64,000 nt of DNA from a bacterium (lineage in GTDB: Bacteria > Myxococcota_A > Bradymonadia > UBA7976 > UBA1532). Each line of letters starts with the position of its first letter. Position 1 is the first letter of the stretch. The position numbers and the translations under genes were made by a program. Under the pieces are notes generated by a model that saw only the letters and a list, made by a program, of their open reading frames with translations, was not told the DNA's origin and did not search any database. The stretch lies in assembly GCA_030426085.1 (NCBI GenBank), contig JAUHYW010000016.1, forward strand, positions 1-64,000, written 5' to 3'. This document shows positions 19,567 to 37,350 of this stretch, piece by piece.

Positions 19567-20790
19567 ATGAGAGCCCACCTGCTGCGCTGGATCCCGCTGA
19601 CCGCGGCGCTGCTCGGCTGCGCCGGCCGCCCGGCCCCGGTCGTCTCGGCGCCCATGCCCGGCCTGCGCGCCGCGCCCGCCGACGCCGACGACGACCCCGA
19701 CCCCGGCCGCTGGCCCCGGGGCTGCGAGGCCGCCGTCGACGCCGCGCTCGCCGCCCACCCCGGGCCGGCCGCCGCCGCCGCCGCGCTCTCTGCCGCTCGG
19801 GCCGACGCCCGGGTCGCTATCACCCCCGCGCCCGAGCTGCGCATCCAGGCCGGGCTGCCCCGCCCGGAGGACGGCGGCCGGGTCGGCCTGCGCATGCCGC
19901 TGCCGTCGCCCGGCGAGTACCGCACCCGCCAGGCCCTCGACGCGGCCCGGGTCCGCATCGCCGAGGCCGATCTGAACGTCGCCCGGGTCGAACTGGCCGC
20001 CGTCGTGCGCCACCTGCACCTCACCGCCCGCCGGGCCCGCGCCGCCGCCCGCCGGGCCACCGAGGCCGCCGAGCTGGCCGACGTCACCCGGGACGCCATC
20101 TCGATCCAGGCCCGGGTCGGGGTCGTGCCCGCCGTGGCCCTGGCCGACGCCCGGCTGGTGCGGGCCGAGGCCGACGCCGAGCGCCGCCGGGCCGAGGCCG
20201 AAGCCACCCGGGCCGAGGCCGCCCTGCGCCGCCTGACCGGCTACGGCGCCGCCGACTTGCCCTGCGCGCCGCCCCCCGACGCCGTCGCCGACGAGATCCC
20301 CGCCGTGCGCGCCGCCCGGGCCCGGGCCGAAGAGGCCGCCGCCGAGGTCGAACTCGACGCCGCCCGGCGCCAGCTCGCGCTGGAGTGGTTCGAGGTCGCC
20401 TGGGACGCGGTGCCCGAGGACCCCGACCGGATGCTGATGGGCTTCACGATCCGCCTGCCGAGCATCGCCCTGGCCGCCGATCCCGTCGGGGCCCACCAGC
20501 GGGCGACCGAGGCCGAGCGGGTCGCCGCCGAGCGGGTCGCGCGCGACGCCGAGGCCGACGCCCGGGTGGCCTGGGCGGTCGCCGTCGCCCGCCACGAGGC
20601 GCTGCGGGCCGATCCGGCGCTGGCCGAGGCCGAGGCGCTGCAAGCGAAGGTGCAGGCGACCCGGGGCAAGGCGCCCGAGGTGCTCGGGCTGCGGCGGCGC
20701 ATCATCCGGGCCCGGGCGGCGCTGGACGAGGCGGCGTTCGAGGCCGAGGCGGCGGCGATCGAGCTGCGCCGGGCGCGGGGGATCGAGTGA
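19567..20790 (+). CDS. TolC-like outer-membrane factor (lipoprotein)
   Basis: 407 residues from the ATG at 19567. An in-frame GTG at 19549 that overlaps the previous stop (GTGA) is a real alternative. Lipobox LLGC at about residues 15-18. The rest is almost all Ala/Arg/Glu helix with two similar halves (AADARVA...EYRTRQALDAARVRIAEADLNVARVELAAVVRHL and later EAEATRAEAALRR...), as in outer-membrane efflux proteins that form a trimeric channel with HlyD-type partners. Hydrophobic beta-barrel segments are hard to see, so it may be a degenerate or atypical member. Last gene of the VTC cluster. Confidence 0.75.
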   Translation: MRAHLLRWIPLTAALLGCAGRPAPVVSAPMPGLRAAPADADDDPDPGRWPRGCEAAVDAALAAHPGPAAAAAALSAARADARVAITPAPELRIQAGLPRPEDGGRVGLRMPLPSPGEYRTRQALDAARVRIAEADLNVARVELAAVVRHLHLTARRARAAARRATEAAELADVTRDAISIQARVGVVPAVALADARLVRAEADAERRRAEAEATRAEAALRRLTGYGAADLPCAPPPDAVADEIPAVRAARARAEEAAAEVELDAARRQLALEWFEVAWDAVPEDPDRMLMGFTIRLPSIALAADPVGAHQRATEAERVAAERVARDAEADARVAWAVAVARHEALRADPALAEAEALQAKVQATRGKAPEVLGLRRRIIRARAALDEAAFEAEAAAIELRRARGIE

Positions 20791-20860
20791 CGCCCGCCAC
20801 GCCATGTGCCACGCCATGGGCCAGGCCCCGACCGGCGCGCGCCCCGAACCGCGGAGGCCG

Positions 20861-21646
20861 ATGATGTCCCAACCGCCCGACTGGCGCCCCGACGAGACGC
20901 CGCTGTTCCGCAACCGCTACGCCCGCTGGGCCCGCCGCTGGCTGCTCTCCGGCGTCGTCGCGGTGGCCGTCGGCGTGGCCTTCTCGGTTCAGATCCACCC
21001 GCTCATCGGGATGATGATCGCCGCGTTCGGCGGCACCTTCGCCCTCATCTTCGGCGCGGCCTTCTGGTACACCGCCCGCGGCGTGAGGGCCCAACTCGAC
21101 CGCATCCGGAGCGGCGCCGTGCTCGCCCGGTGGTCGGTCGACCGCGATCGCTACATGGCGTGGCATCATGAGCGGCAGCATATGCTGGGCATCGCCGCCC
21201 TGGTCGCCGGCGGCCTCGTGCTGCTCATCGGGCTCGTCATCGCGGGCATGCTGCACGACGACGGCGAGGTCGTGGCCGCCGGCTGGCTCGGCTGGGGCAC
21301 CTTCGCCGCCGCCGTGCTGACCGTGTACGTCGCCCGGGCCCACGCCCCCGAGGAGCCCCCGCCGTCGATGCGGCGGGTGCCGATGGTCATCGGGCCGGAT
21401 GGCGCGCTGACGGTGGCCGGCTATGTGCAGTGGCAGGCGTTCGGGGTGGACTTCATCGAGGCGGCGGTCGACGCCGATCCGCCGACGCTGCGGGTGCGCT
21501 ACACGGTGATCGCGAAGCACGGCCGGGTCGAGCACACGCTGGCGCTGCCGGTGCCGGGCGATCGGCTGGAGGAGGCGCGAGCGGTGGCGGAGGCGCTGGG
21601 TGAGGTCGAGCGGGTGCTGGGATCGGGGGCGAGCGGTCCGGGGTGA
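20861..21646 (+). CDS. Unknown four-helix membrane protein
   Basis: 261 residues from the ATG at 20861, which has GCGGAGG upstream (a second ATG follows at once). Four membrane helices in two pairs: about 25-45, 49-67, 107-129 and 132-152. The C-terminal 100 residues are soluble and beta-rich (RVPMVIGPDGALTVAGYVQWQAFG, LRVRYTVIAKHGRVEHTL), resembling a small cytoplasmic PH-like domain. Function unknown. It lies 70 bases after the TolC-like gene and could be part of the same unit. Confidence 0.8.
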   Translation: MMSQPPDWRPDETPLFRNRYARWARRWLLSGVVAVAVGVAFSVQIHPLIGMMIAAFGGTFALIFGAAFWYTARGVRAQLDRIRSGAVLARWSVDRDRYMAWHHERQHMLGIAALVAGGLVLLIGLVIAGMLHDDGEVVAAGWLGWGTFAAAVLTVYVARAHAPEEPPPSMRRVPMVIGPDGALTVAGYVQWQAFGVDFIEAAVDADPPTLRVRYTVIAKHGRVEHTLALPVPGDRLEEARAVAEALGEVERVLGSGASGPG

Positions 21647-22416
21647 GGCGCCGGCGGGTCTGGCTCAGGGGTCCACGCACGCGCGATTCTCGCACACCTG
21701 CCCCCCATTGCAACGACGCAGGGCGGCGAAGCAATGCGGGAACTCTCATCCGAATGCAGTCTTCGCCCGGCGGATATCGGCGCCGTCGGCTTCGTGGGCA
21801 CTCGCGGCTCTCGGAGCCGACCCCGACCTCGATCGGCGCGGCCGGTGGGCCGATCCCGACCGGGCCGCCTCGGCCGAGCCGACCCGGGCGGCCCGCGCAT
21901 TCGCGGCCCTGTCGATACGGCGGCCTCCGGCGGCTCGCGCGGCTCACCCCGGCTCCGGTCGCGGTGGCCCGTGGTGGCCCACGATGTCGGGCCGGCCTCG
22001 AACGCGCGCGCCACGGCCGCTCGCCGGGGCGGGGGCTCTTCGCCGAACCCGACGTCGGCGGCTCGACCGACCGGGGCGCCGATGAGCCATGCGGGCTTCG
22101 GCGGCCCGCCTCTTGACACGAAGAGGCGGTCGATCGCGCCGAGCACCGCGCGGGAGACGGCGGGGTCGACCTCGTTGAGCAGGAGCAGGTTGCGCAGGGT
22201 GGCGTCGAGCCGCAGGAAGCGGCGGCGGGTGGCGAGGTTGAAGCCCCGGGTGCGGTGGGACACCCGGGCCTGGGCGGCGAGGCGCGCGGCCTGGGCGTCG
22301 GCGAGGGCCTCGCACTCGCCGATGAAGGTGCGCTCGAGGAAGTCGAGCGCCGTCTGGTCGCCGAAGCGCAGCGTCCCGAGCAGCGCGCGCTGCTCGGCGT
22401 CGAGGCGCCCGATCAT
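21499..22416 (-). CDS. Unknown protein with dubious 3' half
   Basis: An open frame of 305 codons. The first 125 residues look like protein (LDAEQRALLGTLRFGDQTAL, FLERTFIGECEALADAQAAR, RFLRLDATLRNLLLLNEVD, VSRAVLGAIDRLF). The rest is Arg/Pro/Ser-rich and overlaps both the Cys-rich remnant and the 3' end of the opposite membrane-protein gene by 148 bases. I judge the 5' part (about 22040-22416) to be a real, perhaps truncated, gene and the remainder a run-through. No domain recognised. It lies 69 bases downstream of the TetR gene in the same direction. Confidence 0.4.
   Translation of the reverse strand: MIGRLDAEQRALLGTLRFGDQTALDFLERTFIGECEALADAQAARLAAQARVSHRTRGFNLATRRRFLRLDATLRNLLLLNEVDPAVSRAVLGAIDRLFVSRGGPPKPAWLIGAPVGRAADVGFGEEPPPRRAAVARAFEAGPTSWATTGHRDRSRGEPREPPEAAVSTGPRMRGPPGSARPRRPGRDRPTGRADRGRGRLREPRVPTKPTAPISAGRRLHSDESSRIASPPCVVAMGGRCARIARAWTPEPDPPAPHPGPLAPDPSTRSTSPSASATARASSSRSPGTGSASVCSTRPCFAITV
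21665..21785 (-). pseudogene. Decayed 3' end of a Cys-rich secreted protein gene
   Basis: On the minus strand the last 17 codons before a TGA at 21665 read CNGGQVCENRACVDP, with the four-cysteine pattern of the small modules that end many secreted myxobacterial proteins. Upstream, FPHCFAALRR continues it, but the frame hits a stop. The neighbouring frame supplies PPGEDCIRM directly before, so a one-base insertion (near 21740) seems to have broken the gene. Beyond about 21790 no coding character is visible. Read as a remnant, not a working gene. Confidence 0.45.
22106..22129. other. Perfect 9-bp hairpin inside the dubious gene
   Basis: CCGCCTCTT, loop GACACG, AAGAGGCGG. On the minus strand it follows the last convincingly protein-like stretch of the gene that starts at 22416. 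It may be a chance coding palindrome or a terminator/boundary at which the gene was truncated. Confidence 0.35.
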
Positions 22417-22485
22417 GGCAGGGCAACCATGACGGCCCGGTCTGCCCGAGGCGGGGGGCGCGGGTCTGCCCGGCTCCGCCGGCGG

Positions 22486-23118
22486 TCACCCGTCGGTGGC
22501 GGGATCCAGCGCGAGCAGCCCCCGGGCGATGGCGGTGAGGTGGGCCACGACGACGTGGTTGGCCTCGGCCACCGTCGCGCAGTCGGTCAGCGCGCACAGC
22601 TCGGCGCCGTCGACCACCGCGTAGCGCGAGGCGAGCAGGTTCATCGAGATCACGGCCATGCGCAGCGCGTCGGCCGAGAGCCCGAGCGCGGGGGCGAGGC
22701 GGGCGCAGGCGGCCGGCAGGCGCTCGCTGCGCATCCAGACGACGTTGTCCGGGGGGCGGCCGTCGTCGAGCACGGCCCGCAGGACGATGCGGGCGTGGGT
22801 CGACTCGGCCCGGATCTGTCGCCAGAGCCGGGCCATGAAGCCATCCAGGTCGGGCAGGGGGCCGGTGGCGACCAGCTCGTCGAACAGCCGGTTGAAGCGC
22901 TCGCCCGACTCGGCGAGCACCGCGTCGTAGAGGGCGCGCTTGCCGCCGAAGTGATAGCTGATGGCGGCGGCGTTGGCCCCCGCCGCCCGGTAGATCGTCG
23001 ACAGGCGGGTGCCGCCGTAGCCCTTGTCGGCGAACGCCTCGGCCGCCGCGGCGAGCAGGGCGGCCCGGGTCTGCTCCGAGCGGCTGGTCCGCCCGTCCTT
23101 GCTCTGGTGCGCGCTCAT
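22486..23118 (-). CDS. TetR-family transcriptional regulator
   Basis: 210 residues. N-terminal TetR DNA-binding domain: EQTRAALLAAAAEAFADKGY, GGTRLSTIYRAAGANAAAIS, then YHFGGKRALYDAVL with the usual YHFG turn. The C-terminal ligand-binding domain is helical with a tail of the CerR type (regulators whose C-terminal domain starts about residue 90 with LWRQIRAESTHARIVLR). The inducer is not deducible. Only 31 bases separate its start from the end of the large lipoprotein gene upstream, so it could be read from that transcript. Confidence 0.92.
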   Translation of the reverse strand: MSAHQSKDGRTSRSEQTRAALLAAAAEAFADKGYGGTRLSTIYRAAGANAAAISYHFGGKRALYDAVLAESGERFNRLFDELVATGPLPDLDGFMARLWRQIRAESTHARIVLRAVLDDGRPPDNVVWMRSERLPAACARLAPALGLSADALRMAVISMNLLASRYAVVDGAELCALTDCATVAEANHVVVAHLTAIARGLLALDPATDG

Positions 23119-23149
23119 GGCCGCGCACCCTACCAGATCCGGTTGTGGA

Positions 23150-26100
23150 TCAGGGCGCCGGCGGGTCGGGGCAGGGGCCCCCGGGCCCGAAGCAGTCGGT
23201 GTCCGCGCAGTCGGTGAAGCCGTCGATGTCGTCGTCCCGGCCGTCGTCGCAGATCTCCCGCGGCCGCTCGGGGTCGGTGGTCACCCGCAGCGTATACGGG
23301 CCGTCGAGGGCGCTGACGACGACGTTCACCGTCCCGTGGGGTCGCAGCCGCCGGCTCTCGAGGGCCACCACCCGCTCGAGTCCGCCGCCGACGCGGGCCT
23401 CCCAGCACCGGCCCGCGTCGGGTACGCTCGCGCTGCTCCAGCGGTAGAGGCCGCCCCGGCCCCGTTCGAACTCGGCCTCGATGGTGATGCGCTGCGTCTC
23501 GCCGGTGAGGTTGCCCAGCACGATCAGCTCGAACGGGTGGGCGTCCTCGGTCTCGCCACACTCGGCGTCGGGCCGCTGCCAGACGGGCGAGCGGGCGTCG
23601 AACCGGCCCCCCAGCGCGATCGTCCCGCCCGGCTCGTCGATCATCTGCACGTCCAGCTCGGCGGGGTAGCCGACGCACGCGCCGTCCTCGCACCACCGGT
23701 CGCCGAAGCATTGCACCCCGGCGCAGGGCCAGCAGTGTACCGACCGGCCGCAGTCGTCGTCCGCGCAGTCGAAGTCGCCGTCCCGGTCGTCGTCGAGGTG
23801 GTCGTCGCAGCGCATCTCGAACGCGGTCTGCGGGTGCAGCGTCAGCCCCTCGAGCGTGAACGGGCCGACCGGCGCTCGCTCCTCGGTCGGTTGGGCGGTG
23901 ACCACCAGGGACGAGCGGGCCGGCACGGTGAGGTAGCGGACCCGGTGGACCTCGGGCCCCTGCTCGCGGAAGGCCCACTCACCGCTGACGCACCCCCCGA
24001 GCACGTCGGGGTCGAAGTCGGCGTCGTGCACCGACATCAGCCCCAGATCTTCGCCCCAGTTGGCCAGGATGGTCACCTCGCGGGGCACGTCGGCGTTGTT
24101 GTAGAACCGGTAGGCTTCGTAGTTTTCGAAGTAGTCCCACCGGCGCTCGCAGCCGGGGGCCATCGCCTGCCACAGCGGGCTGTCCTCGTCGAGCGCGCCC
24201 TCGATGGAGACCCGCTCGCCGGGCGCGCCGAGGATGGCGCTCTGCGGGCAGGGCTCGAAGATGTCGTCCTGGCAGTCGGGGTCGGCGCAGTCGGTCAGGC
24301 CGTCCAGGTCGTTGTCCTGCCCGTCCCGGCAGCGGCTCTCGTCGTCGAAGGCGTCGAGCAGGGTCTCGACTTGCAGGCCGAAGTCGGTGAACGGGTCGGG
24401 GCCGTGGGTCACCAGGACCACCTCTCCGCCCGCGGGCACCAGCAAGCGGGGGATGTTGACGTCCGCGTCGTCGACGCACGCCTCCGGCGTCGCCGGGTCG
24501 AAGGGCGGGCGGTAGGCGGCCACTCGGGCGCCGAGCCGGCTCCGCGCGTTGATCGACCGGGGGACGTCGGAGGCGTTGAGCAGCCGGTAGACCCGGTAGG
24601 CCTCGACCGCGTCGCTGCGGCCGTCGCAGTCGGGGGTGGGCCCGCGCCAGGTCGGCTGGTCGGGGTCGATGATGTGTCCGAGGTCGACGGTGTCACCCGG
24701 CGGGGGGAGCAGGAACGGGCCCTCGGCGTTGGCGCAGTCCGCCTCGTCGATGCAGAGGGCGCCGGGGGGGCACGCGCCGCCATAGCCGGGGCACCACCGG
24801 CAGCCGGGGTCGAGCAGGCAGTCGGGGTCGGCGCAGTCCACCTGCCCGTCGCCGTCCTCGTCCCCCGCGCCCCCGCAGCGCAGCTCGGTTCCGATGGGGG
24901 TGTCCAGGGTCTCGATGCGCACCGGCACCGCCCCCGCGACCGTGCGCTCGCCCGGCCCGAGGGCCACCACCGCCCAGATCTCACCCGGCGCCATGGGCAG
25001 GGCCGCCAGCGACGCTCGGGCGTCGGGCTCGGGCTCGGGCTGCCCGGTGATGCACTGCGTATCGCCCGCGCCGTCGAACGGCCACGGGTAGACGTGCAGA
25101 TAGCCGGCCTCGCCGGGCCACTCGGCGTCGAGGCGGACCAGCCGATGGACGGCGGCCCGGTTCTCGACGAGGCGGACGTCGTAGCAGTACGCGCCGAACA
25201 GGGGCCTCGCGCAGCGGTCGGCCCCGATGCGGCGATCGTCGTCGTCGATGGCGTAGGCCAGCTCGACCGACGCGCCGGGTGGGGGCAGGGGCACGGTGTC
25301 CCTCGGCTCGGGCACGCAGCGATCGTCGACGCACAGCTCGCCGCTGGGGCAGGCGCCGCCGCACGGCGCGCAGGCCGGGTCGTCGGCGCAGTCGGCGTCG
25401 TCGCAGTCCACCCGGCCGTCCTCGTCGTCGTCGACCGCGTTGTCGCAGCGCTCCGGTTCGCCGTCGCCGTCGGTCGCCACGGTCACGGTGAAGGCCGGGA
25501 TGACGACCCCCGCGGCGAACGTCGAGACCACCAGCACCCGCACCTGGCCCGGGGCGATCGCCAGCCCCGCGATGCGGCTGCGGCCGGCGTCCTGGCCCAG
25601 ATCGTCGTCCCCGGCCAGGCAGCCGCCGGGGTCCTCGGGGTCGAACGGATCGGCGAAGGCGTGCAGGTAGCCGTCGACGCCGTCCCAGTCGCCGTCGACG
25701 GTCAGGGTGCGCGGGGCGCCGGTGCGGTTGACGACCCGCAGGGCGGCGTAGTGGAAGCCGCCCTGCTGGCCCGCGGCACACCCCTCGCCGGGCCGGCCCC
25801 AGACCGGGGCCGCGGCGTCCAGCGCCCCCCGCAGCTCGATCGAGCCCCACGGCCCGGCGATCGGCGTGGCCGGCTCGGCGGGGCCGGCCACGCAGCGGCC
25901 GTCCTCGCACAGCTCGCCGGGGCCGCACTCGACCGCGGCGCATGCATCGGCCGGGGCCACGGTGCGCACCGTGACGGTGAAGTCGGGCAGCGCCGCGTCG
26001 GCGCTGAAGGTCGACACGACGATCACCCGCACCGCGCCCGGCTCGATGATCAGGTCTTCGACGCGGCTCTGCGCCTCGCCCTGGAAGTCATCGCTGCCCC

Positions 26101-27049
26101 CGAGGCAGCCCTCGTCGCGCTCGGGGTCGAAGGGATCGGCGAAGATCAGCAGATAGCCATCGACCGGGCCCCACTCGCCGAGGATGTCCAGGGTCTGGGG
26201 GGCGCCGGTGCGGTTGACCACGCGCAAGGCGGCGTAGCGGTAGCGGCCGGCGACGCTGGGTCGGCAGAACTGGTCGAGGCGGGTCCAGGTGCGGCTCGCG
26301 TCGTCGAGCGCGCCGGCGAAAGCGATGGCCTCACCCGGGGCGGCGATGGGCGTCGGCGGGCCGGGGACGCACGCGTCCCGCTCGCAGACTTCGCCCGCGG
26401 GGCATGGGATCCCGCCGCACGGCGCGCAGATCCCGCCTTCGTCCGCCACGCCGTCCAGGTCGTCGTCCAGGCCGTTGCAGATCTCCAGGGCCGGGGCCAT
26501 GTCGGGGTCGGGCGGCGCCATGTCGGGTTCAGGGGGTGCCATGTCGGGGTCGGGGAGTGCCATGTCGGGGTCGGGGAGTGCCATGTCGGGGTCGGGGAGT
26601 GCCATGTCGGGGTCCGGCGGCGCCATGTCGGGGTCGGGGGGTGCCATGTCGCGAGCCGGCGGTGCCATGTCGGGATCCGGAGGTGCCATGTCGGGATCCG
26701 GGGGTGCCATATCGGGGTCGAGGGGCCCCCCGTCGGCCCCGGGGGGCGCCCCGTCGACGCGCTGCGGCGTCATCTCGGCGTCCGGCGGCGCCGCGTCCGG
26801 GTCGGTCGGCGCCATGTCGCTCGTGGGGGGCGCGCCGTCGGCCGAGCTCGGGTCATCGGGCAGCCCGTCGGTCATCGGGGGCCCGGTGTCGTCGTCCGAC
26901 CCCCGGCCGCTGCTCAGCGGGGTGCACCCGGCCAGCAGGGTCAGCAGAGCCAGCATGTGCCCGACGCGGCGGCTCGGCCCGATGGGCGCGGTCGGGGGCG
27001 CTGCGGAGCGGCCCCTCGGCGGGGGGACTGCGTGAAGCGGGGGGTACAT
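23150..27049 (-). CDS. Giant six-module surface lipoprotein with Asp/Cys-rich linkers
   Basis: 1299 residues from the ATG at 27049, supported by GAGGAGG five bases upstream. A shorter start at 26956 would put the signal peptide at the very N-terminus. A long basic lead is followed by MLALLTLLAGC, a lipobox. Then comes a disordered stalk with 11 copies of DPDMAPP. Six similar domains of about 140-170 residues follow, each opening with a PGxxIxLxGALDxxSPVW-like strand and carrying WxxxDGYLxxFADPFDP and VVSTF segments. They are separated by CDNAVDDDEDGRVDCDDADC-type calcium-binding, Cys-rich linkers (also CNGLDDDLDG, CRDGQDNDLDG, CDDHLDDDRDG, CDDGRDDDIDG). It is probably anchored in the outer membrane and exposed. 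The domains resemble PPC/adhesion-type beta-sandwiches. Function unknown. Confidence 0.85.
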   Translation of the reverse strand: MYPPLHAVPPPRGRSAAPPTAPIGPSRRVGHMLALLTLLAGCTPLSSGRGSDDDTGPPMTDGLPDDPSSADGAPPTSDMAPTDPDAAPPDAEMTPQRVDGAPPGADGGPLDPDMAPPDPDMAPPDPDMAPPARDMAPPDPDMAPPDPDMALPDPDMALPDPDMALPDPDMAPPEPDMAPPDPDMAPALEICNGLDDDLDGVADEGGICAPCGGIPCPAGEVCERDACVPGPPTPIAAPGEAIAFAGALDDASRTWTRLDQFCRPSVAGRYRYAALRVVNRTGAPQTLDILGEWGPVDGYLLIFADPFDPERDEGCLGGSDDFQGEAQSRVEDLIIEPGAVRVIVVSTFSADAALPDFTVTVRTVAPADACAAVECGPGELCEDGRCVAGPAEPATPIAGPWGSIELRGALDAAAPVWGRPGEGCAAGQQGGFHYAALRVVNRTGAPRTLTVDGDWDGVDGYLHAFADPFDPEDPGGCLAGDDDLGQDAGRSRIAGLAIAPGQVRVLVVSTFAAGVVIPAFTVTVATDGDGEPERCDNAVDDDEDGRVDCDDADCADDPACAPCGGACPSGELCVDDRCVPEPRDTVPLPPPGASVELAYAIDDDDRRIGADRCARPLFGAYCYDVRLVENRAAVHRLVRLDAEWPGEAGYLHVYPWPFDGAGDTQCITGQPEPEPDARASLAALPMAPGEIWAVVALGPGERTVAGAVPVRIETLDTPIGTELRCGGAGDEDGDGQVDCADPDCLLDPGCRWCPGYGGACPPGALCIDEADCANAEGPFLLPPPGDTVDLGHIIDPDQPTWRGPTPDCDGRSDAVEAYRVYRLLNASDVPRSINARSRLGARVAAYRPPFDPATPEACVDDADVNIPRLLVPAGGEVVLVTHGPDPFTDFGLQVETLLDAFDDESRCRDGQDNDLDGLTDCADPDCQDDIFEPCPQSAILGAPGERVSIEGALDEDSPLWQAMAPGCERRWDYFENYEAYRFYNNADVPREVTILANWGEDLGLMSVHDADFDPDVLGGCVSGEWAFREQGPEVHRVRYLTVPARSSLVVTAQPTEERAPVGPFTLEGLTLHPQTAFEMRCDDHLDDDRDGDFDCADDDCGRSVHCWPCAGVQCFGDRWCEDGACVGYPAELDVQMIDEPGGTIALGGRFDARSPVWQRPDAECGETEDAHPFELIVLGNLTGETQRITIEAEFERGRGGLYRWSSASVPDAGRCWEARVGGGLERVVALESRRLRPHGTVNVVVSALDGPYTLRVTTDPERPREICDDGRDDDIDGFTDCADTDCFGPGGPCPDPPAP
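26496..26725 (-). repeat. 21-base minisatellite coding for DPDMAPP
   Basis: Eleven in-frame 21-base units (GCCATGTCGGGGTCGGG plus four variable bases on the plus strand) encode the stalk of the giant lipoprotein. Copies 6-8 share a one-codon change (P to L), which points to recent local duplication. Confidence 0.9.
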
Positions 27050-27353
27050 CGAGCCTCCTCGGCGGTCTCGGGTGGTCGGTCCGGCCGACGGCGACCCGGA
27101 CAGCGCGCGGGTCGGGGTTGGCTGACGATGATTTTAAACGCGTGATTGATTTGATCAAGGCCCATCGAGGGCCCGGCTCACCCCGACGTCGCCCGCCGCG
27201 GCCGGCGAGCGCCGTTCGATGGCCGATCAGCGGTCGGAGATGGACCGGGCGCAGGCTCGATGTCGCGGTGGGGGGTCGATCGGGGCGCCCGGCGGGTGGA
27301 GCCGGGCGCCGGCCGCGTGGCGGCAGAGACGGGTGGGGCGGGTGTCCCGGCGC
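27050..27353. other. Gap between the giant lipoprotein gene and the 61-residue gene
   Basis: 304 bases. It holds the promoter above and otherwise GC-rich sequence in which I see no gene. Plus-strand open frames here are Arg/Gly-rich shadows. Confidence 0.6.
27131..27158 (-). promoter_or_regulatory. Promoter of the giant lipoprotein gene
   Basis: On the minus strand: TTGATC (27158-27153), 16 bases, TAAAAT (27136-27131). This is one of the most AT-rich patches of the window. The transcript would start near 27124, with a 75-base leader. Confidence 0.6.
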
Positions 27354-27539
27354 TCAGCCGAGGTGGGCGCCCTCGGCGTAGAAGGTGATGTGTGTCGCCC
27401 GCCCGGCGCTGCGGACCCGACAGCGGCCGAAGAATTCGGAGAGGCTGAGGCCGAGGCTGTCGCGGTTGTTGTACCAGTATTGCAGGGCGCGCCGCTTGGC
27501 GACGCGGGGCGAGAGACCGCTGAACTCACGGGTGGTCAT
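27354..27539 (-). CDS. 61-residue protein, unknown
   Basis: Small basic/aromatic protein (FSGLSPRVAKRRALQYWYNN, then LGLSLSEFFGRCRV). It is preceded by GAGGAG eight bases before the ATG. There is one Cys and no signal peptide or membrane helix. Real-gene arguments are the ribosome site, a strong promoter far upstream and codon use that avoids the Arg/Pro pattern of shadows. The short basic helix plus aromatic core could bind nucleic acid or a partner protein, but nothing more can be claimed. Confidence 0.65.
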   Translation of the reverse strand: MTTREFSGLSPRVAKRRALQYWYNNRDSLGLSLSEFFGRCRVRSAGRATHITFYAEGAHLG

Positions 27540-27778
27540 GCGTCTGACTCCTCACCGACCGGGGTCGATGCCTGCGGAGCGGGCGCATGGTGGGAAGACG
27601 TGCATCCCGGTCGGCCGACCGGGTGAGCCCCCGCGAGGGGGGTGGACCGGTCAGCCGGCGCGCGCGCTCCGAAAGTTCGGGCGAACGGGGACAGGGGGAG
27701 GTTTGCTGCCTCCGCCTATGTCGCCGGTGTCCATATATTCCTGGTCCTGCCCGGCTGGGCCGGGTCGATGTATTCGCG
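27540..27778 (-). promoter_or_regulatory. Long structured 5' leader of the 61-residue gene
   Basis: About 240 bases lie between the predicted start of transcription (27778) and the ATG. On the minus strand it contains a GGAGG...CCTCC hairpin around AGCAAAC (27699-27717). It also holds a perfect 18-base palindrome CCCGGTCGGCCGACCGGG (27606-27623) and a third ACCGGGG copy near the ribosome site (27552-27563) that could pair with either half of the palindrome. That arrangement would suit a riboswitch or attenuator. I do not recognise a known riboswitch class. Confidence 0.4.
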
Positions 27779-27784
27779 AGCGCA

Positions 27785-27813
27785 AACTAAGAGAGGGGGG
27801 CGGGCGGTGTCAA
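27785..27813 (-). promoter_or_regulatory. Promoter of the 61-residue gene
   Basis: On the minus strand: perfect TTGACA (27813-27808), exactly 17 bases, TTAGTT (27790-27785). The clearest sigma-70-type promoter in the window. Confidence 0.65.
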
Positions 27814-27883
27814 GGGCGGAAATCGAAGGCCGGGCAGACTTTTTCCGGCTCGGCGGGCGGGGGTCCGGGCCCGGCGGGCGGCC

Positions 27884-29476
27884 TCAGATGTCGCGGGTCG
27901 CCACCGCCTCGGCGACGATGTAGACCACCAGATGGCGGGGCGCGCCGCCGCCGGGCAGGGGGCCGCCGGCGACGCCGATGCCGACCACCGTCACCGCCGG
28001 GGCCAGCGCGCTCGGCTCCTGATCGAAGGCGGCCGCCTCGAGGGTCGGCGCGGGGAAGGCCCCGGCGGCGAAGGCCCCCCGGACCAGCTTCTCCTGGCGC
28101 ACCATCGCCATCACCCCCGGCACGACCTCGGTCCAGGCCACCTTGCCCGCCAGCGCGTCCTCGGCGAGCGCCTGGGCCACCCGGTCGAGCACCGGCGATG
28201 GCTTCAGCGGCGGGGCGCCGTCCTGGGCCCGGGTCGCGTTGAGGGTCGTGAGCAGCGTCGCCCGGGCCTCGGCCGGCGGGGCCGGCTCGAAGGGGCGCAC
28301 CGCGGCGAAGACCGCGTCGTAGCCCCGGCCCTTCTCGAATGGCCGCAGCCCCACCGCGATGCGCTGCACGTCGGCGGTGAGCACCGCCCGGCGGCCGGTG
28401 GGCGCCTCGACGAGCAGGCCCACGATCTGGTCGGCGTCGCGCCCGCTGGCGATGGCGTAGCGCAGCTCGGCGAACGGCCAGCCCCGGGCGTCGAGCATGC
28501 CCGGCGGGCTGTCGTCGGCCGAGCGCTCGGCGACCCGGTGCAGCCAGTCGTCGAGCACCGGGTCGAGGCGGGCGGCGTGCACCAGCGGCTTCAGCCCGGC
28601 GGCGTCGCGCACGTCGTTGATGCGGGCGATGAGCTGCTCGGCGGCGGCCTCGGCGGCCTGGCGGTCGGGCCCCGGCGGGGGGTAGCCCGCCGGGCGGGGG
28701 GCGCGGTCGAAGACGGCGACCGTGCGCCGGAAGTCGCCCTGCTTGCGGGCGAGCTCGACCCGCAGCGCCTCGGCGGGCACGGTGCCCGAGAAGCGGCCCA
28801 CGTCGCTGACGGTCAGCTCGATACGCTGGGGGCCCTCGGCGCCGTCCATCCACAGCTCGAGGCGGCCGTCGCCCCGCACGAGCCGCCCGGTGATGGGCGC
28901 GGCGGTCGTCTGGCGGGCGAGCGGGGTGTCGATGCGCACCTCGCCCGGGTCGCGCAGGAAGGTCGCGGTGACCGGCCCCGCGGGATCGACCGCCACGCCG
29001 ACGCCGAAGGTGCCTTCGAAGACCGCCGCCGGCAGCCGCCGGATGTGATCGAGCAGCGTCGCCTCGTCGGGCGCGGTGAGCGAGTAGGGGTGTCGGGGCT
29101 GGGTCCAGTAGCCGCAGTGGCGGCCCAGGGCCAGGACGGTGCCCGGGTCGGGGTCGGCCCGGTCGGCGGCGAAGCGGGCGGCGTACTCCCGGGCGAGGCA
29201 GTCCAGGGCCGGCGGCGGGTCGAGGGCCCGGCCGACCTCCCGGATCAGGCGGGTCTCGAGCGGATCGGCGGCCCAGCCGTCGGCGGCGGCGTAGACCGGC
29301 AGCCCGTCGGTGTAGAACGCGCCCGGCGCGGGCAGCGGGCGGGCGGCGGCCTCGCCCGGATCGGGTGCTTCGGGGCGGGGGCCGGGGGATCCGCCGCAGG
29401 CGGCGAGGGTCACGGCGGCGAGGCTGGCGGTGAGCAGCCGCGCTGCGCGGCGGGTGTTCGAGGGGGCGAGCGGCAT
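27884..29476 (-). CDS. Lipoprotein with two CAP/SCP-like domains
   Basis: 530 residues from the ATG at 29476, with GGAGG upstream; in-frame starts further up lack both a ribosome site and a signal. Lipobox LAAC at about residues 22-25 after AARLLTASLAAVT. The central part (about 270-390) has the pattern of a CAP domain (AEQLIARINDVRDAAGLKPLVHAARLDPVLDDWLHRVAE), and a second similar region follows near 430-500 (LLTTLNATRAQDGAPPLKPSPVLDRVAQAL). CAP domains occur in secreted bacterial proteins with varied roles. The canonical His/Glu quartet is not clearly complete in either copy, so the fold may be used for binding. The N-terminal 200 residues are unassigned. Confidence 0.75.
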   Translation of the reverse strand: MPLAPSNTRRAARLLTASLAAVTLAACGGSPGPRPEAPDPGEAAARPLPAPGAFYTDGLPVYAAADGWAADPLETRLIREVGRALDPPPALDCLAREYAARFAADRADPDPGTVLALGRHCGYWTQPRHPYSLTAPDEATLLDHIRRLPAAVFEGTFGVGVAVDPAGPVTATFLRDPGEVRIDTPLARQTTAAPITGRLVRGDGRLELWMDGAEGPQRIELTVSDVGRFSGTVPAEALRVELARKQGDFRRTVAVFDRAPRPAGYPPPGPDRQAAEAAAEQLIARINDVRDAAGLKPLVHAARLDPVLDDWLHRVAERSADDSPPGMLDARGWPFAELRYAIASGRDADQIVGLLVEAPTGRRAVLTADVQRIAVGLRPFEKGRGYDAVFAAVRPFEPAPPAEARATLLTTLNATRAQDGAPPLKPSPVLDRVAQALAEDALAGKVAWTEVVPGVMAMVRQEKLVRGAFAAGAFPAPTLEAAAFDQEPSALAPAVTVVGIGVAGGPLPGGGAPRHLVVYIVAEAVATRDI

Positions 29477-29649
29477 GGCACCTCCGGTGGGGTCCGGCCC
29501 GCAGTCTGGCCGCTCGGGCCGATTCGCGCCAGCCCGAAACCCCGACGTGGCGCGGTGCGTCATTGCAGGCGCGGGGCCGCGGGATACCGCTTGGCAAGGC
29601 GGCGCCCTTCGCGGTACTGCACTGCGCACACCCGGACGAGCGAGTGAGG

Positions 29650-32022
<2,373 letters not shown>

Positions 32023-32023
32023 C

Positions 32024-33166
32024 ATGCGCGAAGTCGTCATCGTCGACGGCGCCCGGACCCCCTTCGGTCGGGCGCACAAAGGCACGCTGCGGCAGACCCG
32101 GGCCGAGGATCTCGGGGCGGCGGCGATCAAAGAGGCGCTGAAGCGCGCCGACGTCGAGGGGCAGGCGGTCGAGGATCTGGCCCTCGGCTGCGCGATGCCC
32201 GAAGGCAGCCAGGGGCTCAACGTGGCCCGGCAGGTCGGCTTCCTCGCCGGGCTGCCCCACACGGTCCCGGCCTACACCGTCAACCGGTTCTGCGCCTCGG
32301 GCTTGCAGACGATCGCCGGCCTCGCCGCCCGCATCGCGGTGGGCGAGATGGACGTCGCGATCGCCGGCGGGGTCGAGAGCATGACCGCGGTGCCGATGGG
32401 CGGATTCCACCCCCAGCTCCACCCGAAGCTGGCGGTCGAGTACCCCGAGGCCTACGTGAGCATGGGCACCACCGCCGAGAACGTCGCTCAGCGGTTCGAG
32501 GTGAGCCGTGCGGATCAGGACGCGTTCGCGGTCGAGAGCCAGGCCAAGGCCACCGCGGCCCGCGATGCGGGGCGGCTCGCCGAGGAGATCGTGCCGATCG
32601 ACGCCACGGTCGACGGGCGGTCGGTGCGGGTCGAGCACGACGAGCTGATCCGCAGCGGCACGACCGCCGAGGGGCTGGCGAAGCTGCGCCCGGCGTTCAA
32701 CCCCAAGGGGTCGGTGACCGCGGGCAACGCCTCGCCGCTGACCGACGGGGCCGCGGCGGTGGTCCTGATGGACAAGGAGACCGCCGGCGAGCGCCCGGTG
32801 CTGGGCACCTTCAAGGCGTTCGCCACCGTGGGCGTCGACCCGGAGATCATGGGCATCGGCCCGGTGCCGGCCATCCGCAAGCTGCTCGAGAAGACCGGGC
32901 TGTCGGTGGACGACATCGATCTCTTCGAGGTCAACGAGGCGTTCGCCAGCCAGTCGGTCTACTGCCAGCGCGAGCTGGGCATCCCCGACGAGAAGCTCAA
33001 CGTCAACGGCGGCGCCATCGCTCTGGGTCACCCCCTGGGCGTCACCGGCACCCGGCTGGCCCTGACCGCGCTGTACGAGCTGCGCCGTCGGGGCGGCAAG
33101 CGGGCGGTGGTCAGCATGTGCATCGGCGGCGGCATGGGCGCCGCGGCCCTGCTCGAGCGCGCCTGA
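32024..33166 (+). CDS. fadA: Acetyl-CoA acyltransferase (thiolase), beta-oxidation
   Basis: 380 residues. Thiolase with nucleophile Cys90 (VNRFCASG), His336 (GGAIALGHPLG) and Cys366 (CIGGGMG), plus NEAFA. It performs the last step of beta-oxidation, releasing acetyl-CoA. Adjacent to fadN in the FadN-FadA order seen in other bacteria, so degradative function is likely rather than biosynthetic thiolase. Confidence 0.95.
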   Translation: MREVVIVDGARTPFGRAHKGTLRQTRAEDLGAAAIKEALKRADVEGQAVEDLALGCAMPEGSQGLNVARQVGFLAGLPHTVPAYTVNRFCASGLQTIAGLAARIAVGEMDVAIAGGVESMTAVPMGGFHPQLHPKLAVEYPEAYVSMGTTAENVAQRFEVSRADQDAFAVESQAKATAARDAGRLAEEIVPIDATVDGRSVRVEHDELIRSGTTAEGLAKLRPAFNPKGSVTAGNASPLTDGAAAVVLMDKETAGERPVLGTFKAFATVGVDPEIMGIGPVPAIRKLLEKTGLSVDDIDLFEVNEAFASQSVYCQRELGIPDEKLNVNGGAIALGHPLGVTGTRLALTALYELRRRGGKRAVVSMCIGGGMGAAALLERA

Positions 33167-33395
33167 TCCGAGCCCCGGGCTCGAGCCGCGCGCTCGGGCC
33201 CGCTCACCTCCGCCTCCCCATCCCGACGCCGCCCTGCGGGTCACGCCTCCCGCCCTCCTCCGCTGAAATGAAGCGAAATGCTGCGCAATGGACGCGTGCA
33301 CCGCTGACGGGCTACGCTCGCGCGGTGCGATGAGTCGCACAGTGGATTTCGACACGTATCCGGCGCATCACATACGCAGGACGAAGGGGTGAACG
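33167..33395. other. Gap upstream of the caspase gene
   Basis: 229 bases, GC-rich near fadA, then more balanced. It contains the palindrome at 33325-33340. No gene seen. Confidence 0.5.
33325..33340. promoter_or_regulatory. Operator-like palindrome upstream of the caspase gene
   Basis: GTGCGA, 4 bases, TCGCAC: a perfect 6+6 inverted repeat 56 bases before the caspase ATG, where a dimeric regulator could bind. Confidence 0.4.
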
Positions 33396-34715
33396 ATGGT
33401 TTCCAGGACCGAAGGCGCGCGTGAGACCTACGCGCTCATCATCGGCGTCAATGACTACGGGGGCGAGGCGGATCTGCGGGGCGGGATCGCCGACGCGAAG
33501 GCATGGGTCCGGCTCGCGCTGGAGATGGGTGTCCCCGGCGCGAACATCGCGGTGCTCACCAGCCCCGTGCTCGACCCCGGCCGCTGGTCGGGCGACCCCC
33601 GGGTGGCGTCCATCCGCTTCGCGCCGGCGACGAAGAATGCCATCCTGCGCGCCGCCCGAGCCATCGCCAGCCGCATGGATCAGCCGCGCCACAGCAAGGC
33701 CCTGGTGGCCTTCAGCGGCCACGGGAGCTGGGACGCCACCGCGGGGGCGACCCTGGTGCCCTCCGACGGGGCCGACGACCCCGCCAACCGCGTGCCGGTG
33801 AGCGCGCTGCTCGCCGCGCTCGACGAGCGGGCCGAGGGCACCGACGTGACCCTCTTCCTCGACGCCTGCCACGCCGGTCGGGAGGCGGACGAGCCCCGGG
33901 CCCGCCCCCGCACGATCAGCGGTGATCCGGTCCCGGCGACGGCCCACGGCTGCACGCCGTGCCGCCCGGGGGACATCCTGATCTCGGCCACCCAGCCCCA
34001 GGAGCTGAGCCACGAGATCGAGGTCGACGGCAAGCGGCGGGGCGCGTTCTCGTGGGCGGTCACCTCGCTGCTCGATCGCTGGGGCGTGCGCTCGCCGGGG
34101 CTCGACCCCGACTTCGACATCGCCTACAGCGATCTGCTCGACCGCACCCAGCAGATCCTCACCGCGATGGAGGTCATCCAGCCGCCGCAGTACAAGGGCC
34201 CCGACTGGGCCCGGGGGCGGGCGGTCCTGTCGAGCCGGCTGGCGGACGAGCCGGACGGGGTGCCCGACGCCGACGACGCGGTGCGCGAGATCAACCCGGT
34301 CACCGGGTGGTACGAGATCGAGACCAGCGCCGGAGACATCGCCGGCGGCATGACCGTCAGCACGTCGGAGCTGGTCTGGACCTGGGATCTGGACAAGGTG
34401 TCGGGGCCGTTCCCCAGCGGGCTGTCGCTGACGCTCACCAAGCAGAGCGGGACGTTCTACCCCCCGAGCAACAAGCTCGTGCAGACCTTCGAGAACTTCA
34501 ACGGTCTGACCTCGTCGCCCACCACGCTCACCCCGACCTACAAGGTCACCGCCAGCGGCACCAGCGAGACGTACTACGTCAAGTACAGCACCGCCAACGG
34601 GCTGGAGTGGGTGGCGCCGAGCCCCAAGAACATCGGCGGCAACACCATCGAGTTCGAGGACTGGAGCGGCGGCAGCGTGACCCAGCCCTACTACCGTCAG
34701 GACGACTTCAAGTAG
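33396..34715 (+). CDS. Caspase-family peptidase with unknown C-terminal domain
   Basis: 439 residues. Opens straight into a C14 caspase fold: ETYALIIGVNDYGG, catalytic His109 (FSGHGSWD) and Cys158 (LFLDACHAG). No signal peptide, so it acts in the cytoplasm unless released. Past about residue 290 is a distinct 150-residue region with Thr/Ser/Tyr-rich beta strands (VTGWYEIETSAGDI, SLTLTKQSGTFYPPSN, YKVTASGTSETYYVKYST) that looks like an immunoglobulin-type or lectin-like sandwich. I cannot assign it. Bacterial caspases often act in signalling or phage-defence chains that end in cell death. Here the convergent neighbour is a Ser/Thr kinase-FGE protein. Substrate unknown. Confidence 0.9.
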   Translation: MVSRTEGARETYALIIGVNDYGGEADLRGGIADAKAWVRLALEMGVPGANIAVLTSPVLDPGRWSGDPRVASIRFAPATKNAILRAARAIASRMDQPRHSKALVAFSGHGSWDATAGATLVPSDGADDPANRVPVSALLAALDERAEGTDVTLFLDACHAGREADEPRARPRTISGDPVPATAHGCTPCRPGDILISATQPQELSHEIEVDGKRRGAFSWAVTSLLDRWGVRSPGLDPDFDIAYSDLLDRTQQILTAMEVIQPPQYKGPDWARGRAVLSSRLADEPDGVPDADDAVREINPVTGWYEIETSAGDIAGGMTVSTSELVWTWDLDKVSGPFPSGLSLTLTKQSGTFYPPSNKLVQTFENFNGLTSSPTTLTPTYKVTASGTSETYYVKYSTANGLEWVAPSPKNIGGNTIEFEDWSGGSVTQPYYRQDDFK

Positions 34716-34730
34716 GTCGATCGGCGACCT

Positions 34731-34764
34731 CTCGCCCGACCGATCAGCGCAGCGGTCGGGCGAG
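34731..34764. terminator. Strong hairpin between convergent caspase and kinase genes
   Basis: CTCGCCCGACCG (34731-34742), ten-base loop, CGGTCGGGCGAG (34753-34764): a perfect 12-pair stem. It lies 16 bases after the caspase stop and covers the last seven codons of the opposite kinase gene, so it can end transcripts from both sides. Confidence 0.65.
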
Positions 34765-37350
34765 GCGCAGCCCCAGCACGCTGTAGCGGAACCGGGGCTC
34801 GGCGCCGAACCGGCCGGCGATGCGCCCGAGGTAGGGCGAGCTGTGCCAGCAGCCGCCCCGGATCTCGCGGGCCGCCTCGCCGGTGGCCGGGCGCACGATC
34901 ACCCGCTCGCCGTCCCCCGCGTCGCCGTCCCGCAGGTAGGCCCCGCAGCACCAGGTGCGCACGTTGCCCACCGTGTCGCTCACCCGGTACGGGCTGAGGT
35001 CGGTCTCGAGGCAGCCGACCGGGCGGATGGCGGGCGGGCCGGCCCGGCTGTTGAGCACGTTGGCCCAGGTGTGTTCGAAGTGATCGCCCCATGGCAGGTG
35101 GCGCCCGTCCACCCCCCGGGCGGCCTTCTCGTGCTCGAAGCCATGGCACAGGCGCCAGGGCAGCCCGTCCCGCTCGGCCCGCCACGCGGCGTAGGCCGCC
35201 GCGTCGTGCCAGTCGATGTGCACCACCGGCCACTTCATCTGCCATTGCCAGCCGAGCTGATCGACGCCGAGCACGAAGCGATCGTCCGATCCCAGGTGAT
35301 AGATGGCGTGCGGGTCGCGCTCCCCGCCGGGGCGGTTCTCCCGGGGGACGTGGCGCCGGGCGGCGTCGGCGCCCCGGCGGTACAGCAGGTCGTCGAGGAA
35401 CTCGACGTACTCGGCGTTGGTGACCGGGTAGCGGCGCACGACGAAGCCATCGAGCCACACCCGCCGCCGGCTGAGCGAGTCGGCGGCGTCGTCGTCGCCC
35501 CCGATGATGCACCACCCGGCGGGCACGTAGACGTCGTCCGGCTCGAGTTCGTCGGCTGTCGGCAGGTGGATGACATGGCTCTCGGTGCCACCCGGTGGGA
35601 TGCCATCCCAATGGGATCCCCGGCCGATGTCGACCGGGTAGCGCACCGGCGGGCGGCCCTCGGCTTCGATGACGAGCATGTGGCTGCCCCGGGGCAGGCG
35701 CGCGCCGCGCAACGGGGTGCGGCCCAGCTCGCCGTGCGGCACCTCGATCAGCCGCCGGTCGCGGGCCTCGTGGCGCCAGGCCATCACCCGGGCCCCGGGG
35801 GGATCGGTCACCAGGGTCACCCGGCCGTCGCCGGCCAGCCACTCGACGAGCCCGCCCCGATCGTGGGTCCGCACCAGCTCTTCGTAGATGCGGGCGGTGT
35901 GCCCGTCGCGGGCCTGCTCGGCCTGCCGCAGCCGATCCTGGTAGAACGCCGCCAGCCGGGCGTGGGCCTCGGGCAGATCGGGCACGAGGTGCAGCGCCGA
36001 GCGCAGGGTCTGGAGCATGCGGACCTCGGTCAGCTCGGCCTCGCTGCGCTTGGCCCGGGCGGCGTCTTCCAGATCCCAGCCGGGGCGCTTGTCGGCGACC
36101 GGCGCGTGGTCGGGCAGGGGGTCGAGGATCGCCGCCGCCTGCCGCTGCAGCGCGGCCATCTCGGCTTGCAGATCGGCGATGCGGGGCAGCATGGCGTCGG
36201 CCTCCTGCACGATCGCCCGGGCCTGGGCCGCCTTGCGCACCCCGTCGAGCCAGCCTTCGATCTCGCCGGCGAGGGCGTCGACGGTGGGGCGGCCCTCGGG
36301 GTCGCGGGCCATCGCCCGCTCGCACAGCGCGACCAGATCGGGCGGCGCGGGGCCGGCGCGGGGGTGGCGCACGCGGTCGATCGGCGGCGGCGGGTCGCTG
36401 CGCACCCGGGCCAGCACCGCCACCGAGGTGCCCCGATAGGGGGGCTGGCCGGCGAGCACATGATACAGCACCGCGCCGAGCGCGTAGGCGTCGGCCGCCG
36501 GCCCGACCCGGTCGTGCTCGCCGCGGGCCTGCTCGGGGGCCATGTAGGCCGGGGTGCCCATGACCCGCCCCTCGCGGGTCTCACCGGGCAGGTCCGGTGC
36601 CCGGCGCGTCGGCCCGCCGGCCCCGTTCACCGCGGGCTCGGCCGGATCGGCGCCGACCCGGGCGATGCCCCAGTCGAGCACGAGCACCTCGCCGAACTCC
36701 CCGAGCATGATGTTGGCCGGCTTGATGTCGCGGTGCACCACCCCCTGGGCGTGGGCGTAGGCCACGGTGCGGCACACCCGGGCGAAGACCTCGATGAGCC
36801 GGCGGGGGGAGGGCGCGTCGGGCACCTCTCTGAACCGGGCCCGGATGGCGTCGCCCAGGGTGCGGCCCCGGACCTCCTTCATGGTGAACCACGGGCGGCC
36901 GTCGGGCAGCTCGCCCTGCTCGTGCACCGCGACCACCCCCGGGTGCTGGAGCCGGGCGTTGACCCGGGCTTCGGCCAGGAAACGGGCCCGGGCGTCGACG
37001 TTGTCGACCTTCTCCCAGCGCAGGATCTTGACCGCCAGGGTGCGCTCGAGCAGGCGGTCGTAGACCCGGCGGACCTCGCCCATGCCGCCCATGCCGATGA
37101 CCCCCTGGTCTTCGTAGCGCTCGAAGAAGGGCAGCCCGGCGAAGTCGACGCCGAGCGGGTGCTCGGGGTCGACGGCCCCCGGCCCGGCGAGCGTGGGGCC
37201 CGAGGTGAGCGTCAGTGAGGGTGAGGGGGGGCCGCCCCCGGTGCTCAGCGCGTCGACGAGCGCGCGCAGCTCCCGGGTGGCGAGCGGCGAGAGGCCGTAG
37301 CGCTCGGCGAAGCGCTGCAGCGGGTACGGCGGTGCGTCGGAGGAGGCCAT
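34744..37350 (-). CDS. Ser/Thr protein kinase fused to FGE-sulfatase domain
   Basis: 868 residues from the ATG at 37350 (a GTG at 37368 is an alternative). Kinase at about 75-340: glycine loop [19 protein letters not shown] lysine, catalytic [11 protein letters not shown] in place of the usual DFG (LVLDWGIAR), APE as MAPEQ. Then a helical linker with coiled-coil character ([14 protein letters not shown]), a PEGA-like beta stretch, and a formylglycine-generating-enzyme/sulfatase-modifying domain to the end ([57 protein letters not shown]). In this setting FGE domains usually bind or signal rather than modify sulfatases. No membrane helix, so cytoplasmic. Convergent with the caspase gene, divergent from an FHA gene that may read its phosphothreonines. 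Confidence 0.92.

Follow-up and report, generated by a model that had tools for sequence, protein, structure and literature searches.

What is a leader of some 240 bases doing in front of a gene for a 61-residue protein? The initial annotation of this locus had offered two readings, an RNA switch controlling the small protein or a regulatory RNA with a coding tail. Within the window, the 64,000-nucleotide stretch of DNA that was analysed, the minus strand carries TTGACA and TTAGTT spaced by 17 bases, a leader of about 240 bases and a 61-codon ORF, all of which could be located in the sequence as noted. With transcription assumed to start at about 27778, the leader extends from 27778 to 27540 (239 bases, minus strand). 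The outer frame of the locus is as follows.

27808..27813, minus strand: -35 element TTGACA, read from the sequence
27785..27790, minus strand: -10 element TTAGTT, a weak match read from the sequence; TTAGAT in the same-genus relative
27548..27553, minus strand: Shine-Dalgarno sequence GAGGAG of the main ORF, read from the sequence
27354..27539, minus strand: main ORF of 61 codons, encoding the conserved basic small protein

The description of this promoter as the best in the window stands in part. The -35 element is perfect, and its -10 element is the best among the six TTGACA hexamers of the 64 kb. However, this -10 element is weak, matching TATAAT at two of six positions at the spacing of 17 (by eye; three of six at spacings of 16 or 18), and a consensus promoter scan of positions 20000-36000 reported two other sites and not TTGACA-TTAGTT. 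The real support for the promoter comes from conservation: in 31 of 42 homologous loci a TTGAC lies no more than 160 bases before the first start, versus 103 of 840 random 150-base windows (in L020, TTGAC lies beyond the 160 bases scanned).

The small protein was first searched for by its own sequence in 57 relatives, then with an alignment in the class and the phylum. It gave one match each in 30 of 57 genomes of the class (E<=0.001), and its distribution was thinner in a sample of the phylum, with matches in 38 of 377 genomes (E<=0.01). Three further class-wide searches, with matches in 3 of 52, 3 of 71 and 6 of 289 genomes, added five new loci, and 18 named homologue loci come from metagenome assemblies labelled Myxococcota, Myxococcales, Deltaproteobacteria, Proteobacteria or only "bacterium". 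Two genomes of the window's own family (G002 and G004) contained no match to the small protein. The family shares a core of about 50 residues, with Phe6, Gly8, Lys15, Arg16, Trp22 and Ile51 invariant in an alignment of 26 sequences (A1), and the protein has a net positive charge (by eye). Judged from these sequences, the small protein is real and conserved.

Searches of Pfam, NCBIfam and PADLOC returned no family for it, a sequence search of the PDB gave no clear match (best E 0.025), and tblastn against plasmids and phages found none. Of 24 members, one or two matched each of 11 PHROGs families, with a best E of 0.0019 for one member, and these families were not taken as relatives. An AlphaFold2 model built from 18 sequences (mean pLDDT 87, pTM 0.69) displays a strand, three helices and two strands. 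Compared with the PDB, this model gave nothing at E<=0.001 with Foldseek and a best Z of 4.7 with VIA-align 2, and thus no clear relative in the PDB; MinE, the FliG-interacting domain of FlhF and dodecin-like proteins were considered as candidates. A role of the basic, aromatic helix with nucleic acids is only a guess.

The leader contains the following elements, numbered where segments can pair.

27750..27764, minus strand: 5' hairpin CCCGGCCCAGCCGGG, just 5' of the ribosome site of the upstream ORF (uORF); similarly placed in the family by eye
27739..27748, minus strand: AGGA-containing ribosome site of the uORF, read from the sequence
27651..27734, minus strand: uORF of 27 codons, MDTGDIGGGSKPPPVPVRPNFRSARAG followed by a stop; present in 11 of 11 family members
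27647..27656, minus strand: segment 1, the 5' arm GGC-UGA-CCGG including the uORF stop codon; complements segment 2 (p=0.002)
27613..27622, minus strand: segment 2, CCGGUCGGCC, partner of segment 1 or segment 3 in the pairing tests
27606..27623, minus strand: the 18-base palindrome, hairpin 2:3 (CCCGGUC-GGCC-GACCGGG); Fisher P 9e-5 to 2e-3 by register
27602..27614, minus strand: segment 3, complementing a stretch beside the second ribosome site; by eye in the window and in L002
27555..27571, minus strand: segment 4, GCAUCGACCCCGGUCGG, immediately 5' of the Shine-Dalgarno sequence

The claim of a structured leader was borne out. The leader of the window folds with a z-score of -3.10, none of 200 shuffles being equally stable, and a slightly different stretch gives -2.29. 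As a control, 60 random 240-base windows had a mean of -0.22, with three reaching -2 and none -3, against which the whole-leader mean over 11 family leaders is -2.20. The perfect 18-base palindrome, CCCGGTCGGCCGACCGGG, is indeed present at 27623-27606 (minus strand), but its length is at chance level: the window holds five perfect palindromes of at least 16 bases and each of ten dinucleotide shuffles holds 4-9, so that the palindrome was rejected as notable by length alone. The complementary copy reported beside the ribosome site was confirmed as CCCCGGTCGG at 27564-27555, immediately 5' of that site and complementary to the second half of the palindrome. Hairpins differing in sequence occupy the position of the 5' hairpin in most family leaders (by eye). 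Their energy is not below that of shuffles (family mean z -0.09), and the 5' hairpin is therefore only a candidate element.

Two conventional modes of control were rejected. Rfam covariance models gave 0 matches in the window at the gathering score, which argues against a ligand riboswitch of a known family. No intrinsic terminator, sought as a GC stem with a U run, was found on the minus strand of the leader; attenuation by such a terminator was therefore rejected, and a shorter attenuated RNA arising in this way is not indicated. RNAalifold applied to a MAFFT alignment of 10 leaders returned no common structure. The genome has one copy of the leader, and in a search of seven genomes the sole strong relative came from the other member of the genus.

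Inside the leader lies the 27-codon uORF, which the initial annotation had missed. It is found in 11 of 11 gene-bearing members of the window's family, starting 67-79 nt from the start of the -35 element, with lengths of 27, 27, 22, 23, 23, 32, 25, 24, 24, 25 and 25 codons (range 22-32); these uORFs were chosen by eye from the leaders first and tested afterwards. In three same-genus pairs, nucleotide identity is 81-87% in the uORF, 78-84% in the main ORF and 59-74% in the flanks, the uORF and the main ORF being similarly conserved between close species. The start of the peptide is kept within the family, its second half is poorly conserved (L008 versus L009), and no stall motif is common to all uORF peptides. 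The frame of the uORF relative to the main ORF is 0 in seven family members, 1 in two and 2 in two. Given this variation in relative frame, and a separate ribosome site for the main ORF, readthrough or hopping from the uORF into the main ORF was rejected. The uORF of the window is probably translated.

Outside the class, 10 further loci also have a leader ORF, likewise chosen by eye, of 10-39 codons and with a TTG start in L108. The Lys-Pro-Pro-Pro core of the window uORF (AAACCTCC, within 27734-27651) recurs in the leader ORFs of L108 and L109, which belong to another class; the recurring KPPP might act as a polyproline pause, or its bases as an anti-Shine-Dalgarno stretch.

How the uORF is placed relative to the fold gives the strongest statistical signal. 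For each leader, the ten bases around the uORF stop and their best downstream complement were compared with 1000 dinucleotide shuffles. In 10 of the 11 leaders of the family, the in-frame stop lies in the 5' arm of a stem at p<0.05 (Fisher P 1.4e-11; 1.5e-8 with one leader per genus), L006 being the member without stem 1:2. The codon before the stop co-varies with its partner, as GGC/GCC, GAG/CUC, CUC/GAG, CGC/GCG and AGC/GCU. Over the 10 uORF loci outside the class, stem 1:2 is not significant (P 0.10); those leaders are still structured, chiefly 5' of the second ribosome site (mean z -1.72).

Segment 2 can alternatively pair with the next segment, and in the window this hairpin 2:3 is the palindrome. 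The pairing gave P 4.6e-4 with an 8-base core and 9e-5, 8e-4 and 1.6e-3 with three other registers, in which L007 was shifted by three bases to match the others; L006, having no stem, was left out of the 2:3 and 3:4 comparisons and of one further comparison of family leaders. The sequences and these statistics thus establish the conservation of the protein, the promoter, the uORF and stem 1:2, and lend moderate support to the competing hairpin 2:3. A strong promoter and a structured regulatory leader for a small protein are therefore supported, and the lack of conservation of leader or protein, which had been named as counter-evidence, was not encountered in relatives.

The link from these stems to the second ribosome site is less regular. 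By eye, the pairing of segments 3 and 4 stands out in the window and in L002, its genus mate, but over 10 family leaders it is not significant (P 0.60). In a thermodynamic simulation of a ribosome at the uORF stop in 18 leaders, the second site opened by more than 3 kcal/mol in four and closed by more than 3 kcal/mol in four, with smaller changes in the rest. In the window it became less accessible, from 10.2 to 13.7 kcal/mol. Co-transcriptional folding could alter this outcome.

With these elements, the leader stands about an even chance of being a translation-gated switch of a conserved small-protein gene. In such a switch, the conserved TTGACA promoter would give rise to an mRNA whose first ORF encodes the 27-codon leader peptide, with the stop codon built into the 5' arm of stem 1:2. 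Ribosomes finishing the leader ORF would keep segment 1 open, leaving segment 2 to fold as the palindromic hairpin 2:3, and stem 1:2 would form when ribosomes do not finish it. Segment 3, in the window and in L002, could otherwise pair with segment 4 beside the second ribosome site. Translation of the leader would in this way act on the accessibility of the second ribosome site and hence on the amount of small protein. We infer uORF translation, the switching of stems and main-ORF translation as the output. The notion of an RNA switch is retained insofar as two mutually exclusive stems lie on one strand, but the switch belongs to no Rfam family and is likely gated by ribosomes through the uORF. 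Gating by ribosomes is likelier than a ligand riboswitch, given the absence of an Rfam match and the position of the uORF, which is best placed to drive a switch.

To see how general this arrangement is, we compared the 42 homologous loci. Thirty-two have their own promoter, and in all of them a predicted short ORF stands at the front of the gene: a uORF only in 15, an overlapping minimal ORF with an out-of-frame start only in 11, and both in six. Eight loci lie directly behind another gene, whose stop is at most 20 nt from the start or overlaps it. These operon loci have no TTGAC in the 160 bases upstream, neither short-ORF device, no leader and a plain in-frame start. L016 and L017, with neither TTGAC nor an adjacent upstream gene, fall outside both groups. 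The short-ORF gate thus accompanies the autonomous promoter. The view of the transcript as a regulatory RNA with a coding tail is disfavoured, as the ORF is the most widely conserved part and these eight relatives keep it without the leader.

The second device was found in 17 of the 42 loci, where the protein frame lacks an ordinary start and the start codon opens a minimal ORF out of frame. Its typical form is NTG-GGR-NNN-NNN-NNN-stop, with the protein in the -1 frame from an overlapping GGG. The first two codons are ATG GGG in 11 loci, TTG GGG in four, ATG GGA in one and GTG GGA in one; codon 2 being GGR in 17 of 17, a glycyl-tRNA could re-pair one base back. Six of these loci (L013, L014, L066, L108, L109 and L110) lack any ATG, GTG or TTG in frame with the protein, both over about 120 bases upstream and in the stretch leading to the conserved core. 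In the remaining eleven an in-frame start candidate exists, mostly without a good ribosome site (by eye); a GTG directly follows the GGG in L061 and L029, and L107 has an in-frame ATG. The copy in the window is without this device, as it begins in frame with ATG ACC and has no slippery motif.

The out-of-frame stop falls at codon 6 in 13 of the 17 loci. Over 15 genera, L025 and L027 having been dropped as same-genus repeats from this test and from the frame-selection test, a codon-6 stop occurs in 11, compared with 2.19 expected from the amino acids and a local codon usage crudely estimated from neighbouring ORFs (P 2.7e-9). This excess argues that the minimal ORF itself is under selection. 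A test for amino-acid selection on the first codons of the relatives was uninformative, all three frames scoring alike (z 3.4-4.0). In a search of nine genomes, exact matches to the device were found only at the small-protein gene; of the extra matches with one mismatch, the one common to G023 and G029 sits inside another gene.

The dual-frame arrangement suggests that the relatives start either by a -1 frameshift at codon 2 or by stopping and restarting. In the first case, ribosomes would start on NTG, read GGR and then, before the initiating Shine-Dalgarno sequence has let go of them, slip one base backwards on the overlapping GGG. The shifted product would be Met-Gly followed by the protein frame, and unshifted ribosomes would stop at about codon 6. 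A shift at this position explains the conserved GGR. It is possible, though we hold it at somewhat less than an even chance, that the codon-2 frameshift is the ancestral gate in the phylum and that the lineage of the window lost it and relies on the stop-in-stem uORF. That lineage would then combine an in-frame ATG with a leader ORF in place of the shift.

Alternatively, ribosomes might translate the minimal ORF to its stop and initiate again at the NTG or NTA codon of the protein frame that overlaps this stop, without any -1 shift on G_GGR. By necessity, the conserved stop shares bases with an NTR codon of that frame, which is GTG in L061 and L107, and the resulting starts, such as M-E-F-x-G, resemble those of L062 and L063. 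Yet the overlapping codon is ATG in none of the 17 loci, CTA, GTA and ATA are very poor start codons, and restarting needs no GGR, the very feature present at codon 2 in every case. We regard restarting as less likely than not, yet as a serious rival to the -1 shift at codon 2.

For the leader itself, three rivals to ribosome gating were weighed. First, the structure could be passive, protecting or insulating the mRNA, with the main ORF constitutively translated from its own good Shine-Dalgarno sequence. A passive leader would agree with the in-frame ATG and the Shine-Dalgarno-like sequence that every one of the 11 family members has, and with the inconsistent opening of the second ribosome site in the stall simulation; the conserved uORF, the register of its stop in the stem and the competing hairpins would then be left unexplained, and the loci without their own promoter have none of these features. 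We consider a passive leader improbable. Secondly, the small basic protein or a metabolite could bind the folded leader and control translation, the uORF being incidental. The invariant Lys15-Arg16 and the positive charge noted by eye would suit a protein of this kind, as would the fact that its own leader folds strongly and occurs once per genome. Against this autogenous or ligand-dependent control, to which we give a low probability, stand the missing Rfam match, the location of the uORF stop in a conserved stem, which a ribosome-independent sensor does not require, and the fact that no sequence-conserved binding pocket was seen across the family leaders. Thirdly, a functional micro-protein encoded by the uORF of a simply bicistronic transcript would fit the conserved peptide start within the family and the KPPP-like core in another class, but is very improbable given peptides that vary strongly in sequence and length (10-39 codons over 21 loci) and 11 own-promoter loci that have no separate uORF.

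Ribosome gating, the favoured reading of the leader, can be compared with known systems. Translational attenuators of the erm and cat genes have a leader ORF and alternative stems, 1:2 and 3:4 versus 2:3. Likewise, in the present leader a short ORF is followed by segments with the alternative pairings 1:2 and 2:3, and a second ribosome site lies beyond them. A predicted short leader ORF with its own ribosome site is present in all the family leaders, and the two stems are mutually exclusive, one of them overlapping the leader ORF, with the strong statistics given above for 1:2 and moderate ones for 2:3. Unlike in erm and cat, stem 1:2 is anchored on the stop codon, the 3:4 pairing that would sequester the second ribosome site is not consistently supported over the family, and none of the libraries searched identifies the product as a ribosome-modifying enzyme. 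Given the irregular results on sequestration and release of the second site, we did not class the leader as of the erm type. In Escherichia coli, a short ORF (toiL) in the structured region upstream of topAI is proposed to report ribosome stalling to the downstream gene; the likeness is that of a uORF in a structured region upstream of a gene, the genes and sequences being unrelated (PMC12121999). By analogy, the leader would work most like the leader-ORF attenuators of erm and cat and uORF sensors such as toiL-topAI.

Recoding systems provide the comparison for the relatives. In the release factor 2 gene prfB, ribosomes translate many codons before they shift +1 at a stop. As in prfB, the starting frame of the relatives soon meets a stop, and making the protein takes a change of frame that is conserved; the relatives differ from prfB in that the change would be -1 and at codon 2. 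They also resemble -1 frameshifting on Z_ZZN tetramers (PMC4066793): in the relatives, though not in the window, a G_GGG or G_GGA tetramer stands in the register that suits a protein encoded in the -1 frame. Their site differs from the Z_ZZN cases in being codon 2, directly after the start codon, and the G_GG.G tetramer was not shifty by itself in an E. coli assay (PMC4066793). A case of frameshifting during initiation, involving a variant initiator tRNA, was concluded in favour of the normal frame (PMC11497404), and frameshifting is reviewed in PMC5009743. In the open PMC literature, with subscription journals mostly outside it, no paper among the titles listed dealt with the protein family or with codon 2 as a site of programmed frameshifting.

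The unusual parts of the system are the stop-in-stem leader ORF and the dual-frame start of the relatives. They belong to a small-protein family that has no clear library match, is single-copy where present and, at loci with an autonomous promoter, invariably has a short-ORF device. A working gate would be a natural leader-ORF switch beyond antibiotic-resistance and amino-acid operons, the best-known homes of such leaders. The start of the relatives poses a testable question, that of a programmed frame change at codon 2; if the frameshift reading is true, it would reveal a new place for recoding and two interchangeable short-ORF gates on one gene. Gene finders requiring an in-frame start would miss the genes of these relatives.

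The genes around the locus were also compared, from crude gene calls named by eye except for Pfam results. In the window, a CAP-domain protein gene (27884-29629, minus strand) lies directly 5' of the small gene, and a fatty-acid-oxidation pair (29653-33163, plus strand; hydroxyacyl-CoA dehydrogenase/hydratase and thiolase) is divergent from it. This neighbourhood is partly kept in the window's family: a CAP-domain relative was found upstream in seven of nine other family neighbourhoods and not in L069 and L070; G007, which is a contig of 3.8 kb, was left out of this comparison. Other lineages have murI, ftsH/cvpA or other neighbours. A fixed genomic partner was rejected on these differences between lineages, which indicate that the unit is autonomous.

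At L111, L113, L114, L115 and L066, a glutamate-racemase-like gene adjoins the small gene, often with a second gene of one type (names by eye). In L018, L019, L021, L022 and L026, the upstream gene contains a conserved A+T-rich stretch (like TTTTTTAAAATTAAAGGATAAT) about 200 bases before the start of the small gene, which may represent either codons for a conserved peptide or an internal promoter. On the other side of the small gene in the window, positions 23150-27049 (minus strand) hold a 1299-codon ORF with a lipoprotein-like start (by eye) and no Pfam family above the cut-off; within it lie consecutive PPDPDMAPPDPDMA-type repeats and several acidic segments that contain cysteine. Just 5' of this large ORF (27049-23150), the promoter-like TTGATC-16-TAAAAT at 27158-27131 (minus strand) is one of two sites reported, versus 0.4 expected.
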